NCBI GenBank assembly: GCA_937924525.1
Contig: CALDSU010000002.1
Location: forward strand, 62,001-126,000
Length of the DNA: 64,000 bases
From: an uncultured Bryobacteraceae bacterium
GTDB taxonomy: Bacteria > Acidobacteriota > Terriglobia > Bryobacterales > Bryobacteraceae
Direction: 5' to 3'
Notes under the pieces: generated by a model
Databases searched by the model: none
What the model saw: only the letters and a program-made list of their open reading frames with translations
Told to the model about the DNA's origin: nothing
Program-made: the position numbers and the translations under genes
Part shown: in pieces, positions 714 through 5,735 of the stretch
How the letters are laid out: every line of letters begins with the position of its first letter
Numbering within the stretch: the stretch's first letter is position 1

Positions 714-1817
714 TCAGGAAACTTCGAGCAGGACCCAGCCGGGCAGCGTCGAGGGCTGGCCGCCTTCGAAAACGATGCGGCGGGTCTTGGGGAAGGGCAA
801 GCCGCTGGCCACGGCCCGGGAATAAAACGGGAGTCTGCCCAGCAGGGCGCGGTATTCGCCGGCGTCCTTTTCGATCCAGGCGGTCTTGCCGCACAGGCTG
901 CCGCCCCAACCGAGCGGCAGCACGCAGGCCTGCTCAGGATCGAGATTGCGCAACCGGTCTTCGAGGGCGGCGATGGCGGCCCGCACGGGCTCCAAGCCGG
1001 TTGATTCCGCGTATTGCCTGTGCAGCCGGAGCACCGCGGCCGCGTACTGATTCACGGCCTGGAAGATTTTGCCCCGGGCGCTGGCGCTGCGCTCCTGCCA
1101 GGCTCCCTGAAAGGCCGCGCCGGGGACGGCCATTTCCGCGAACCATGGCGTGGATTCCTCGATGCGGCGCGAGTCCACCGCCCCGCGCGGGCTCTGCTTC
1201 CAGCCGAGCGTCCACTGGTCGCCGCGCGCTGCGGTCACGGTGGCCAGGCGCAGCAGGTAGACCTTGACGGGGGAGGCGTCGACGGGCGCGGAGTCGCCGG
1301 CCCGGACGAAACGCATCCGGCTGTTGCCGGCGCGCCCCAGGACCTCGTCCTCCACGGCTTCGGCCGGGCGCCGGGGCAACCGGTCGCCTGCGAACCGCTC
1401 CGCCACGGGCTTGAGCAGACCTTCCCGCAGGGACGCGAACAGTACACCGGTGCGCAGCGCGCCCTTCAGCGCGCTGGCCGGCAGATAGTGCCCATGCAGT
1501 CCGCGCGCGAACGTGGGGATATGAATGCTGTCTCCCGTGGCGCGTTCCCAATATTTGGAACACGAAGGATGCTCGAAGGGGATGCGCCGGTCCGCGAAGT
1601 TCTGGGCGAATCCGCCCCAAGACGCGAAATCGAGTTTATCGGCCTTCCTCAGTTGCGACAGGTAACCTTCGAGCCGGGGCCCCTTGGCGAGCAGCTTGAA
1701 GATCCGGTGCTGGTCGAGCACGTTTACCTGGTCCTTCCAGACCATGTAGTCGATGGGCGAAAGCCGGTGGCCGTCGCCAACCAGCACCGGCGTCAGACAG
1801 GTGACGCGGTAGGTCAT
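714..1817 (-). CDS. csm5: Type III-A CRISPR effector subunit Csm5 (RAMP superfamily)
   Basis: This 367-aa RAMP protein is expected to cap the crRNA 3' end of the Csm complex. It opens with the typical Csm5 pattern: a first beta strand TYRVTCLTPVLVGDG, then SPIDYMVWKDQV. It carries the GSALKGALRTG-like signature (here ASALKGALRTG, about residues 147-157), which is the RAMP helix-capping motif. The start codon overlaps the csm4 stop in an ATGA arrangement (1814-1817), indicating translational coupling. It is the last gene of the operon and ends 3 bp from the converging isomerase gene, so no csm6 follows it. Confidence 0.88.
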   Translation of the reverse strand: MTYRVTCLTPVLVGDGHRLSPIDYMVWKDQVNVLDQHRIFKLLAKGPRLEGYLSQLRKADKLDFASWGGFAQNFADRRIPFEHPSCSKYWERATGDSIHIPTFARGLHGHYLPASALKGALRTGVLFASLREGLLKPVAERFAGDRLPRRPAEAVEDEVLGRAGNSRMRFVRAGDSAPVDASPVKVYLLRLATVTAARGDQWTLGWKQSPRGAVDSRRIEESTPWFAEMAVPGAAFQGAWQERSASARGKIFQAVNQYAAAVLRLHRQYAESTGLEPVRAAIAALEDRLRNLDPEQACVLPLGWGGSLCGKTAWIEKDAGEYRALLGRLPFYSRAVASGLPFPKTRRIVFEGGQPSTLPGWVLLEVS

Positions 1818-2896
1818 GCCACCTCCTCGGCGGGCGCCGGTTCCACCGGGACGGCCGCGGGGACGAAAGGTTGCGCCAGAATCGGCGCCGCAACGGCGAA
1901 GCCGGCCCGGTAAACCGGATGCGGAAAGCCGTCCGGGGCCACGTTGGAAGCGCGTCCGCGCGGGGGCGCCGCCGCCACCAGTACGGAGCCTTCGGCGACC
2001 ATGTTCTGAAGTTTCTTCAGCGCGCCGGGCGCCTGGGGGCTTTCCACGCGTCCGCCGCGCGTCACCAGCGAGTAATGTCCGGCGTCCCAGCGCACGGGCT
2101 CGCCGGAAGCGGGAATATAGAGCGACAGCAGCCAGTAGCTGCTGTCGGCGGGGGCGCCGCCTTGCGCGGCCTCGGCGGCCGCGAGCAGTTGCGAAGCGCG
2201 GGGAAGCAGCATCGGCGCGAGCGCGCCCTCCACCACCTCGGCGATCTCAAATCGGCCCCAGCCGCGGGAACGCTCGCCGCCGACGCCGGTGTCGCCGAGG
2301 TAGCGCAAAGCCGTCTGGAGCGGATCCCACCAGCGGGTCCGCGCCTCTACGGTTGCGAACACGATGGCGAACCAGAAGCCGCCGCCCGCGACGAATTCCA
2401 AGCACGCCGCGGCGTGGGGTTCGAGGCCGGTCCCGGCCCGGTCCACGGCGGCGGCGGTGCGGACCGCTGGGCGATACGGCCCATACTGGCCGAGCGGCAC
2501 CAGACACTCGCTGGCGCCATCCACGCCCCAGAGCGCGTCGTCCAGCGAACCGCCGGACAACAGCGCGTCCACCACGTCCAGCGGCACGAAACGCGCCCCC
2601 TTCCAGCGCACTTTGGCGGACAGGGAGAGCGGCGGCCAGATCGTCCGCGGCGGCGTCACATAGATCAGGTCGTTGACAAAAGGGAAACAGGACGAGAAAC
2701 AGACTTCCGCGGCGGGGGCCTGCGCGGTGGCCGCCAGCCACTCGTCCAACTGGCCCAGGCGCAGGAAGGCGAGCGTCACCGCCGAATACAGCGCGTCGCT
2801 TCGATAGTGCAGACCTACGCGGTCGCGGGCGCCGGAATCGGTTCCGATCCGCCACGCGCCGGTCGGACGGATTTTGACGACGGCTGCCGAATTCAT
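1814..2896 (-). CDS. csm4: Type III-A CRISPR effector subunit Csm4 (Cas5-like RAMP)
   Basis: This 360-aa protein is the Cas5-group subunit that binds the crRNA 5' handle and contacts Cas10. The frame is open further upstream, but that part is a shadow of csm3. ATG at 2896 overlaps the csm3 stop as ATGA and is followed by a proper beta strand (VVKIRPTGAWRIG), so it is the start. Visible family features are the HYRSDALYSAV segment near residues 30-40 and the glycine-rich loop GGERSRGWGRFEI near the middle. The last about 25 residues are an Ala/Pro-rich tail that looks disordered. Coupled to csm3 upstream and csm5 downstream. Confidence 0.87.
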   Translation of the reverse strand: MNSAAVVKIRPTGAWRIGTDSGARDRVGLHYRSDALYSAVTLAFLRLGQLDEWLAATAQAPAAEVCFSSCFPFVNDLIYVTPPRTIWPPLSLSAKVRWKGARFVPLDVVDALLSGGSLDDALWGVDGASECLVPLGQYGPYRPAVRTAAAVDRAGTGLEPHAAACLEFVAGGGFWFAIVFATVEARTRWWDPLQTALRYLGDTGVGGERSRGWGRFEIAEVVEGALAPMLLPRASQLLAAAEAAQGGAPADSSYWLLSLYIPASGEPVRWDAGHYSLVTRGGRVESPQAPGALKKLQNMVAEGSVLVAAAPPRGRASNVAPDGFPHPVYRAGFAVAAPILAQPFVPAAVPVEPAPAEEVA

Positions 2897-3726
2897 TCCT
2901 GGATATAGGCGGAACCGGAATCCCGCAACCAAGCCTGCACGGTGGCCAGGTCCGGCCCGGCCACCAGTTCCTTCTCCGGCGAAGCGCCCGCATAGTATCC
3001 GCGGCTCCGCCAGGCCAGCCGCAGATTGGCGAAGCGGACGCGCCCGCTGCCGCGGGATCCGCCGCCGCCTAGCGCATCGTCTTCCAGCAGACGCATGCCC
3101 TCGACGACGAGGGAGAACAGCGGGGCGTCCTCTTCGCACAACACATCCATCGCCATGCGGACCAGGAACCGGGCTCCGGCCGGGACGCGCTCCAGCGTCC
3201 GGGGATTGGCCTGGGAGGTGATACGGTCAATCGCGTTTTCGCTCTTCACCTCGGTCAGTTCGTCATCCAGGTTCTCGCGCATCTGCGGCGTGATGCTCTC
3301 CGGATCCAGCGGCGCATCATACACGGCGAGGCGGGCGGGCGTGGCGGCGTTTGATTCGATCGGCTCGCCGGATACCCTTTCCATGCGCCCGGGATTCCGC
3401 CCGAACAGCAGGCAGATCTCGTCGTCGGGCCGGTCGCTCTGATGGATGCGGACCTCCTGTCCCTTGCGTTTGGACAGGTAGACCAGTTCGGCCGGCGTGG
3501 TGAGCCCGTGGGCGTGTTCGAGCAGCGAGCGCAGTTTACCGCGCAGCGAACTGCCCGGCACATAGGGACGTCCGAAAGCGTCCTTGATCACCGGGTTATC
3601 GGATCCGCCGATTTCCAGCGACCCCTTGCCGGCGCCCACATGCAAGCCGGTCTCGCAGTGCAATTCGCCCTCGAGAATCAGTTTTCCAATCAACTTGAGC
3701 TGAGTTTGCGTCGTATGCGCGCTCAT
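2893..3726 (-). CDS. csm3: Type III-A CRISPR effector backbone subunit Csm3 (Cas7-like RNase)
   Basis: This 277-aa Cas7-group RAMP should form the crRNA-binding backbone and cut target RNA at 6-nt intervals. The N-terminus shows the classic Csm3 order: ETGLHVGAG, LEIGGSDNPVIKD, then PGSSLRGKLRSLLE. Asp43 in GGSDNPVIKD lines up with the catalytic Asp33 of Streptococcus thermophilus Csm3, so the RNase site appears intact. The C-terminal glycine-rich loop GGGGSRGSGRVRF is present. A 66-bp gap separates it from csm2, and its stop overlaps the csm4 start. Start ATG at 3726. Confidence 0.92.
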   Translation of the reverse strand: MSAHTTQTQLKLIGKLILEGELHCETGLHVGAGKGSLEIGGSDNPVIKDAFGRPYVPGSSLRGKLRSLLEHAHGLTTPAELVYLSKRKGQEVRIHQSDRPDDEICLLFGRNPGRMERVSGEPIESNAATPARLAVYDAPLDPESITPQMRENLDDELTEVKSENAIDRITSQANPRTLERVPAGARFLVRMAMDVLCEEDAPLFSLVVEGMRLLEDDALGGGGSRGSGRVRFANLRLAWRSRGYYAGASPEKELVAGPDLATVQAWLRDSGSAYIQE

Positions 3727-3792: not shown

Positions 3793-4254
3793 CTACTCGT
3801 TATAGGCAATGATGGCTTCAAACAGGTCCTTAAAGCGCTCGTAGCCGCGCGGGTCGTTCTTGCGCGTCACTTGCAGCAGGAGTTTCTCGAGCTGGTCGAG
3901 GCTGCGCAAGGAATGGCGCGCGATGGTGTAGGCCAGCCGGGCGCGGAGCATCACGAAGCCATGCTGCCGTTCGGCCTCGGGGATCCGGCAGGCCCGGCGG
4001 ACGGCGTTATAGAACCGCCGCAACTGACTCTTGGTGCCCGAGTCCATGTCGCGCATCCGGCTGACGATCGCATGCGCCTGATTGTCCAGGTACAGGCTGT
4101 CGGCGATGAGCTTGTCCAAATCAATTTCGGGCGGCCCTTCCGGGCGGCGATCCCGCCGATCGCGCTCCCCCCGGTCCCGATCCCGGTCGCGGGGATAGCC
4201 GCCCCCGGCATTCGCCTCGCGAGGGGGTTTCGCTTTTTTCTCTTGATCGGCCAT
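3793..4254 (-). CDS. csm2: Type III-A CRISPR small subunit Csm2 with an Arg/Asp-rich N-terminal tail
   Basis: This 153-aa protein is the alpha-helical small subunit lining the crRNA-target filament. The helical core runs from about residue 45 to the end, with a segment SQLRRFYNAV and a C-terminal YERFKDLFEAIIAY typical of Csm2. The first about 43 residues are low-complexity, with alternating Arg and Asp (RDRDRDRGERDRRDRR), and look disordered; such a tail is not usual for the family. The frame is open to 4302, but ATG at 4254 has AGGA about 7 nt upstream and lies 20 bp after the cas10 stop, so it is preferred. Second gene of the operon. Confidence 0.85.
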   Translation of the reverse strand: MADQEKKAKPPREANAGGGYPRDRDRDRGERDRRDRRPEGPPEIDLDKLIADSLYLDNQAHAIVSRMRDMDSGTKSQLRRFYNAVRRACRIPEAERQHGFVMLRARLAYTIARHSLRSLDQLEKLLLQVTRKNDPRGYERFKDLFEAIIAYNE

Positions 4255-4274
4255 ATGGATTCCTGAACCAAACC

Positions 4275-5735
4275 TTACGCTTCGTTCACCAGCCGCGCCC
4301 ATTCCAGCGCGACCAGTCCCGACGGGCGGAGCTTAACGTGGGTGGACCGCCGCCCGGCCAGTTCGCCGGAAAGATGGGTGCGCAATTTCTGAAACTCGCG
4401 TTCGCGGCCGCCGCCGAGAATCACGTGGAGGCGGCGCTGAAACCGCCAGACGCGCTCGACCGCGGTTTCAGCGGGCCGCGATCCGGCCGCCGCGATCTTG
4501 CCGTAGAGACTCAACAACTCCGGCAGGACGTGGCGGGAGGCACGCTGGTCCGCGATCATCCGCGTGACCGCGTCCTTCAATTCCGCCGCGTCGGCCAGTT
4601 GCTTCCACTCGAGCACGCGGCCCAGCAAGTAAATGCAGTCCTTGTCGGCCGCTTTGGCCTGCGCCAGCAGCCGGCCCGCATCCTCGTAGACGGCGGCCAG
4701 CGAGGTCTGGCCGGGCTCGGCGACGGCCAGCGCCATCGAAATCGTCTTGCCCTCGGCGCCGGGATAATCTTTCAAGTTTTCTTCGCTGAAGCGGTGAAAC
4801 AAGCGCTGCATTTCCCGGGCGAGCACGACCAGGGAGTCCCACGCGCCGTACACCGCAAAGTCGTCGCCTCCCGAGTAGAGAATGGTCACGTTCCGCCAGA
4901 ACTCGGGCAGCGAACAGAGCACCTCCAGCTCGCCGGCGAAGAACTGCTTGTAGAGCACGGAAAGGGGAACGTATTCCTCAATGCTCTGCACGCGGCGCAG
5001 GCGGAACTCGAAATCATCGGCGTCGCCGCGGAGCACGCCCCACAACGGACGGCCGGTGGCGCGGCGCGCCAAGGCCGCGACATCCGCGGCGGCGCCCGGG
5101 TCGTCGCCCGGCGCGGCGTGGCGGGCGATGGTGATCCCGTCGGCCGAAATATTCGCGGTCAGCCGCCAGGTGTGCTTGCCTTCGCCGGGAACCACCAGTC
5201 CCGGGGCGTCAGGAGACCACCCCACCACCGGGGTCTCGCGGATCCGCGCCCCGAGTTGCTCGGCGAAATAGGTCCGCGTATCCGCGGGCGCGGGGGGAGC
5301 ATACGGAGTAAAGCAATCCTCGGGAGATCCCGCCAGCGGGCGGCCGGTCCACCGCTCCAGTTGCTCGTTCAAGCGCTTGCGGACGGCGGTCCAATCGCCG
5401 AGATTTTCCGTCGCCGCCCAGCACAGGCGGAGATGCCCTCCGCTCAAGCGCTCGATGTCGGCCGCGGCTTCCCGCAAAAACGCAACTGCCGCCTCTCGGG
5501 AAGCATCAGGCAGGACCAGCAGGAACTGCCCCCCGCCGCTGGAACCAAGCAGGATCCGGGCCAAACCCATTTCAGCGAGCAGCGCGCGGGGCAGGACCTC
5601 GCTCAAGAGCGTGATCCATTGGGCGCGGCCCACGACGACCCGTTCGTCGCTTTCTCCCTCGGCAAGTCCGGAGGGAGAAGTAAGGAACTCTTCAATCCCC
5701 AGCAACTTGCCTTTCAGCAGAATCTGTACTGACAT
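4275..5735 (-). CDS. cas10: HD-less Cas10/Csm1, type III-A CRISPR signature subunit with intact GGDD motif
   Basis: This 486-aa protein is far shorter than usual Csm1 (about 750-850 aa). Residues 1-115 match the Palm1 domain: ARILLGSSGGGQFLLVLP at about 59-76 is the typical Palm1 strand pair. No HD domain precedes it. The linker (about 140-235) contains a single Cys (141), so the usual four-cysteine zinc finger is missing. Palm2 begins near RGDADD (236-241) and carries SGGDDF with GGDD at 289-292, the cyclic oligoadenylate synthase motif. KAADKDCIYLLGRVLEW (361-377) and a helical D4-like end follow. Predicted roles are complex scaffold and cOA signalling, without ssDNase activity. First gene of the operon; the Shine-Dalgarno is weak. 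Confidence 0.88.
   Translation of the reverse strand: MSVQILLKGKLLGIEEFLTSPSGLAEGESDERVVVGRAQWITLLSEVLPRALLAEMGLARILLGSSGGGQFLLVLPDASREAAVAFLREAAADIERLSGGHLRLCWAATENLGDWTAVRKRLNEQLERWTGRPLAGSPEDCFTPYAPPAPADTRTYFAEQLGARIRETPVVGWSPDAPGLVVPGEGKHTWRLTANISADGITIARHAAPGDDPGAAADVAALARRATGRPLWGVLRGDADDFEFRLRRVQSIEEYVPLSVLYKQFFAGELEVLCSLPEFWRNVTILYSGGDDFAVYGAWDSLVVLAREMQRLFHRFSEENLKDYPGAEGKTISMALAVAEPGQTSLAAVYEDAGRLLAQAKAADKDCIYLLGRVLEWKQLADAAELKDAVTRMIADQRASRHVLPELLSLYGKIAAAGSRPAETAVERVWRFQRRLHVILGGGREREFQKLRTHLSGELAGRRSTHVKLRPSGLVALEWARLVNEA

Follow-up and report, generated by a model that had tools for sequence, protein, structure and literature searches.

The window analysed here, a stretch of 64,000 nucleotides from an uncultured Bryobacteraceae bacterium (genome G000), carries on its minus strand a csm operon in the order csm1-csm2-csm3-csm4-csm5, running from position 5735 down to 714. 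The first gene, csm1s (4275..5735, ATG start), encodes a short Cas10 of 486 aa with a Palm1-linker-Palm2-D4 layout and neither an HD domain nor a zinc finger. It is followed by csm2 (Cas11; 3793..4302, 169 aa as called), csm3 (Cas7; 2893..3726, 277 aa), csm4 (Cas5; 1814..2908, 364 aa counted from the ATG at 2908) and csm5 (714..1817, 367 aa). Csm2, Csm3, Csm4 and Csm5 each exceeded their curated NCBIfam cut-offs (TIGR02582 for Csm3 and TIGR01899 for Csm5). The upstream neighbour is a Gfo/Idh dehydrogenase gene, and the downstream neighbour is a convergent ORF that weakly resembles a sulfoquinovose isomerase (32 bits against a cut-off of 700). Neither the window nor the 10 kb past its left end yielded a CRISPR array. 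Among the features of type III-A, the locus has a large subunit with two Palm domains and D4, GGDD in Palm2, Csm2-Csm5 in one operon with Csm1, and the Csm3 aspartate. It lacks an array linked to the effector genes, and it lacks the N-terminal HD of Csm1, which is usual in III-A, not obligatory.

In the 486-aa protein, Pfam recognised Cas10-Cmr2_palm2 (PF22335) at aa 233-368 (4632..5039, E 3.4e-16), including the GGDD cyclase motif at aa 289-292 (4860..4871). Csm1_B, representing the Palm1 region, matched weakly at aa 36-82 (E 7.9e-4, under the family cut-off), and no HD family was detected at E<=1. The NCBIfam Csm1 model scored 148.7 bits against a cut-off of 170, its best stretch covering model positions 489-730 of 753. 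A near-invariant motif specific to this clade extends from W106xxTENLGxW115 to R121 (5373..5420). Cysteines occur at 105, 141, 274 and 367 and form no CxxC pair; since C141 alone lies between the two palms, the zinc finger has been lost. The AlphaFold model (pLDDT 83.7, pTM 0.85), which was also compared with solved structures using Foldseek, superposed over residues 1..486 on residues 247..753 of Enterococcus italicus Csm1 (Z 32.8, 442 residues, rmsd 3.3 A). Because this alignment starts at about residue 247 of the reference, what has been lost is the N-terminal HD half, and Palm1, Palm2 and D4 are retained. An earlier note made from the letters of the window had described a Cas10 of 486 aa with Palm1 at its N-terminus, no HD domain, one Cys in the linker and GGDD at 289-292, and all of these points were borne out. 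The same note had the complex no longer cutting ssDNA. The loss of the HD domain was confirmed, and with the domain missing, HD-dependent ssDNA cleavage is predicted to have been lost as well.

Homologues were examined in two samples, both hand-picked from the listed matches (long contigs, good genomes). The first consisted of 55 csm loci, the window's and 54 others; the second was a panel of 70 genomes, 68 with the operon and 2 without. Prevalence was measured by a separate search of 257 genomes and not from either sample. Most of the genomes were draft MAGs.

Palm2 was recognised in each of the 18 short-Cas10 homologues scanned, and an HD family in none of them (E<=0.1). The HD half of canonical Csm1 gave no tblastn match in the 55 csm loci, in a search that recovered its positive control. 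In the window an in-frame stop lies 30 nt upstream of the csm1s start, and in 46 of the 55 loci such a stop occurs at no more than 120 nt; the other nine have longer open frames, of up to 1107 nt. These stops, the blank search and the same start in the homologues rule against an annotation or assembly artefact in which the HD half was lost by a frameshift, such as the one upstream of 5735 considered in the earlier note, or resides in a split gene nearby, and we give this explanation practically no weight.

The five genes were found in this order in 51 of the 55 loci, the window's included, and the other four loci were truncated by contig ends. The gene sets comprise 50-55 sequences, as csm4 and csm5 genes truncated by contig ends were excluded (G619, G513, G499), along with csm2 of G553 and csm4 of G490, which contained extra stops in the stretch as delimited. 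Csm3 D43 (3598..3600), presumably the RNase catalytic aspartate, was invariant (53/53), and its DNPVIKD loop aligned with DNPVIRD of the 4qts Csm3. Over the aligned part, identity to the proteins of the window's genome was 61-83% for Csm3 and 63-92% for Csm2. Csm2 has a highly conserved core preceded by a low-complexity tail, which in the window is rich in Arg, Asp, Gly and Pro (approximately aa 17-54; 4141..4254). All 52 Csm2 proteins as called had 34-154 residues ahead of the core, lengths that may be overestimates given that each start was set at the first ATG in the open frame, and R+G+P made up at least 40% in 47 of the 52. The tail is probably disordered. Csm4 exceeded 400 aa in 16 of 50 loci, L060 among them, and in G524 the length was due to a long Pro/Glu-rich insertion ahead of the C-terminal domain.

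Matches to the short Cas10 were found in 215 of 257 Bryobacterales (Acidobacteriota) genomes, in 143 of the 163 good ones and in 70 of 84 genera; G446 and G613, counted among the 215, gave fragmentary matches only. A single family held all of the short-Cas10 matches listed. In an even sample of the phylum, 21 of 396 genomes matched, with full-length matches only in G000, G187 and G289, which belong to this same family. One peptide pattern matched 150 stretches in public records, of which 127 were relatives; in the best 80 of these 127, most named records were Bryobacterales, Ca. Solibacter, Ca. Sulfopaludibacter and Acidobacteria bins. A short Cas10 of Bryobacterales type is also carried by L209, L217 and L226, whose records bear the labels Nevskia soli, Acidimicrobiia and Bordetella parapertussis, and these bins look mislabelled or mixed. 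A mobile origin was considered and rejected, as relatives were absent from plasmid and phage records (E<=1e-5). In viral contigs five stretches matched the pattern and none was confirmed.

CRISPR effector loci are typically patchy in distribution and horizontally mobile. The five-gene csm unit, by contrast, is inherited vertically. In the Cas10 tree the short proteins all grouped on the same side of a single branch (support 97/93), which was recovered in 98% of 200 bootstrap trees; the tree includes one row in a wrong reverse-strand frame (L143, branch of about 5) and six loci entered twice, and the short group was still one branch. The loss of HD, raised in the earlier note as possibly common to a clade, is so. 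Cas10 distances followed those of RpoC with a Spearman coefficient of 0.827 (40 genomes, 780 pairs), a value reached by none of 999 permutations, of which the highest gave 0.379. This comparison retains the pair G490/G492, whose RpoC identity is oddly low (0.82). For Csm2-5 the coefficients with RpoC were 0.66-0.79.

The surroundings of the operon were conserved in part. An AAA_22 ATPase gene, which we take to be ‘ExeA-like’, follows csm5 on the same strand at a distance of 1-191 nt in 23 of the 49 loci with downstream sequence, spanning 17 genera (for example L099:10382-11287); the locus of the window's genome is outside these 23. It may be only an old neighbour, or it is possibly linked in function. 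A conserved stretch behind csm5 was at one point a candidate for a non-coding RNA, and it proved to be the start of this ATPase gene; an Rfam search of L099 gave no match. Upstream, a common gene was present in 11 csm loci. Behind the ATPase gene (L099:11510-12085) there is a short frame whose start resembles a signal peptide and which contains some 7-9 Pro-rich repeats, nearly identical to one another, with a unit of about 15-17 aa such as ISPLPPPDPWGDGL and IRPIRPPDPLGFDRE. The frame occupies the same place in G594, G538, G539 and G515, and judged by its sequence it looks like a secreted repeat-peptide precursor. Similar DNA repeats were seen in the csm loci of G534, G471, G481 and G490.

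Across seven genome pairs, dN/dS of the operon genes ranged between 0.015 and 0.22 (Cas10 0.04-0.14, Csm3 0.015-0.093, Csm2 up to 0.22), two values from the pair G441/G443 being saturated. One pair, G538/G539, allowed a comparison with a canonical III-A locus: 0.137 for the short Cas10 against 0.138 for the canonical Csm1, 0.093 against 0.037 for Csm3, and 0.168 against 0.213 for Csm5. The short operon is thus under purifying selection, no stronger than that on the canonical locus. Since the canonical values are similar, constraint alone is no argument for a non-immune role, and what selection shows is that the operon works. Decay of a formerly complete III-A locus could account for the absence of HD, of the zinc finger and of a linked cas6 and array, and for the erosion of the cyclase motif in some lineages. 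However, the frames are open save for the two stretches in G553 and G490, Cas10 dN/dS is low, Csm2 and Csm3 remain similar and the short Cas10 is matched in 215 of the 257 genomes, and we reject a decaying remnant as highly improbable.

The short complex is an additional system beside a canonical III-A locus in the window's genome. On another contig (C3; L003:13675-19944) this genome carries cas6, an NE0113 CARF gene, a full Csm1 and csm2-5, together with an array that has ATTGAAAC handles and is cut short by the end of the contig. The canonical Csm1 is 842 aa long with an HD motif at residue 20, CGAC/CAAC and GGDD; its Cas3_HD match in Pfam was weak (E 0.033). The two systems have the same set of subunits, but the canonical one differs in its HD motif, CxxC pairs, cas6, NE0113 gene and array, and its Cas10 is placed elsewhere in the tree. 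One spacer of the canonical array (L003:19683-19714) reads as a perfect hairpin (CCCCGTGCGG...CCGCACGGGG) with T's behind it, resembling an intrinsic terminator inside the array. Two further Csm1 proteins from Acidobacteriota, whose open frames span 531 aa (L141, G086) and 666 aa (L145, G275), have CxxC pairs and no HD motif that we could see. They lie on a branch apart from the short Cas10s and are possibly a second reduced Cas10 lineage.

The earlier note proposed RNA cleavage by Csm3 and cyclic oligoadenylates (cOA) as the only ways in which the complex acts. The invariance of D43 agrees with the first part, whereas the second is weakened by the variation at positions 289-292. These read GGDD in 41 of the 55 loci and GGDE in four; in the remaining ten the motif was altered (GGND in three, and GSDD, DTAD, GGHG, GIEG, GLEG, GGYD and SGSG in one each) while the operon persisted. 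In G441 and G443 both the cyclase motif and the Palm2 aspartate D238 have been lost, and Cas10 dN/dS is still 0.055. With the motif altered in these loci and the Csm3 aspartate invariant, cOA would not be the constant output of the complex. Two families of effectors that would respond to such a signal were looked for. Csx1_HEPN was found in none of the 70 panel genomes, by a search that was positive in 2 of 14 control genomes; an NE0113 CARF protein was found in 10 of the 70, and the 55 csm loci contained no relative of NE0113 (profile and phmmer, controls recovered). A module that works mainly by cOA signalling, with RNA cleavage by Csm3, does have in its favour the GGDD/GGDE motif in 45 of the 55 loci and the Palm2 domain recognised in all homologues scanned. 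It would also fit the sections we drew on of Hoikkala et al. 2024 (PMC11229360), in which the cyclase domain was recognised in 92% of Cas10s and HD in 39% of 1113 type III loci, 65% of III-A and 3% of III-D. Considering both sides, we find this model somewhat unlikely.

No cas6 was found in the 55 csm loci (profile and phmmer, controls recovered), but Cas6 was present elsewhere in the genome, unlinked to the operon, in 62 of the 68 operon-bearing panel genomes (63/70 overall). Two were seen in the window's genome: that of the canonical locus, and a second on contig C5 (L238), which has no array nearby. Among 19 usable cas6 loci, 18 formed one family, with L253 as a divergent member and no widely common neighbours. 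A profile built from the other 17 proteins matched 202 of 257 genomes at E<=1e-15; some weak matches to it (e.g. G538, G539, G466, G480 and G637) are probably other Cas6 proteins, and one stop was listed within several matches, in G615 the gene's own terminal stop. Cas6 occurred without a short-Cas10 match in G498, G517 and G503, and the reverse was seen in G430 and G484.

One real array was found near the 19 usable cas6 loci, at L250 in G410; it has six repeats and lies at a distance of about 7 kb from Cas6, and another Cas10-type gene lies some 10 kb from this Cas6. A repeat in L252 (G461; L252:12357-13011), about 3.5 kb from cas6, was dismissed as a spacerless tandem repeat with a unit of about 100 nt. 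Exact 19-mers recurring at 40-120 nt were found in 15 of the 55 csm loci. The clusters inspected were tandem or palindromic and none was repeat-spacer-like: those of ten loci were coding tandem repeats downstream with a period of about 45 nt, a tandem repeat of about 80 nt in G502 and palindromic repeats in G539. The clusters of G510, G551, G449 and G423 were placed within csm4 by coordinates alone, and the single cluster of G532, at 11.6 kb, was coding-like. ATTGARAC handles were not in excess near the csm operon (21 seen against 26 expected under a first-order chain and 46 under equal bases). The same held for the cas6 loci, with 15 handles, six of them in the G410 array, against 12 expected.

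The guides could instead come from other CRISPR systems in the cell. Cas1 was present in 43 of the 68 operon-bearing panel genomes (44/70 overall), and TTGARAC pattern matches in 26 (27/70 overall), a count that covers repeats ending in TTGARAC and includes some matches that are not arrays (G415). Ordinary crRNAs in trans are therefore possible for many genomes, and the short complex might be an ordinary immune effector that has parted from its arrays, acting by RNA cleavage and cOA with crRNAs taken from co-resident systems. The canonical locus and array on another contig of the window's genome would suit such an arrangement, as would the conserved crRNA-binding subunits and Cas6 family and the dN/dS values resembling those of the canonical locus. 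It would be unusual, however, for a defence locus to be near-core and passed on vertically. Furthermore, 20 of the 68 genomes have neither Cas1 nor a TTGARAC-type array; among these 20, PF22335 (Palm2) is matched just once in 18, and Cas6 is present in 17. We regard immune service with guides in trans as possible, though at somewhat less than an even chance. A precedent may be subtype III-G, which according to the excerpts available from PMC12669027 has so far no array and has been suggested to recruit crRNAs in trans.

Subtype III-G is nevertheless a different system. The same excerpts give it an apparently active HD, no conserved Cas7 aspartate, and Csx26 in place of Cas11, whereas the short complex has lost HD, keeps an invariant Csm3 aspartate and includes Csm2. 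Variant III-A2, as portrayed there, resembles the short complex in a Cas10 predicted to make cOA and in a conserved Cas7 aspartate, but is without an identifiable Cas11, while Csm2/Cas11 is among the best conserved subunits here. The III-A Csm complexes of E. italicus, Lactococcus lactis and Streptococcus thermophilus share with it the same five subunits, the Palm1-Palm2-D4 fold of Cas10 and the Csm3 Asp loop. Compared with these, the short complex is without HD, zinc-finger cysteines, linked cas6, NE0113 and array, and it adds Arg/Gly/Pro-rich Csm2 tails and vertical inheritance across a family. An HD-less Cas10 is in itself common. Like the short Cas10, those of III-D, many III-B and about one third of III-A combine a cyclase with the loss of HD but, as far as the consulted sections of PMC11229360 describe them, they sit in CRISPR loci of ordinary make-up. 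The main text of that paper does not contain the word Acidobacter, and a clade-wide, array-free complex was not found in those sections. We found no account of this complex in the open-access literature, to which our search was confined. The new part is the family-wide, array-free complex.

We think it likely that the operon encodes a vertically inherited, guide-dependent, RNA-targeting Csm ribonucleoprotein, which is either domesticated or supplied with guides in trans. According to this model, the HD domain and zinc finger of a III-A complex would have been lost once, at or before the base of Bryobacteraceae/Solibacteraceae (Acidobacteriota), and the resulting minimal complex would then have been transmitted vertically as a five-gene unit. 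The stand-alone Cas6 would cut guide RNAs, which would be loaded onto Csm1s-Csm5, and the Csm3 backbone would bind and cleave complementary RNA. Cas10 would serve as a scaffold and, in those loci that have GGDD or GGDE (the window's included), might also produce a cyclic-nucleotide signal. Cleavage of DNA by an HD domain would not be expected of the complex. Arrays located elsewhere may supply the guides in trans; where a genome has neither Cas1 nor arrays, the guides may instead derive from chromosomal RNAs.

The choice between immune service and domestication turns on the nature of the guides, which may be CRISPR spacers acting in trans or chromosomal RNAs dedicated to the complex. If they derive from chromosomal RNAs, the complex would be a domesticated regulatory or surveillance ribonucleoprotein. 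Such a domesticated III-A effector would be a Csm ribonucleoprotein without DNase, linked array or adaptation genes, using non-CRISPR chromosomal guides processed by the stand-alone Cas6 to regulate or survey the cell's own transcripts; its cyclase output would be optional, and the Arg/Gly-rich Cas11 tails would add RNA binding or condensation. We put this fuller version forward tentatively, as a reading that has a real but minority chance of being correct. The short complex would offer a naturally DNase-free Csm scaffold, and the question of a stable non-immune role for a type III complex becomes testable in soil Acidobacteriota. If the interpretation is true, the complex would clearly illustrate how a multi-subunit CRISPR effector becomes a near-core component of the cell: machinery once used for defence may, within a single family of soil bacteria, have been turned into a standing part of the cell.
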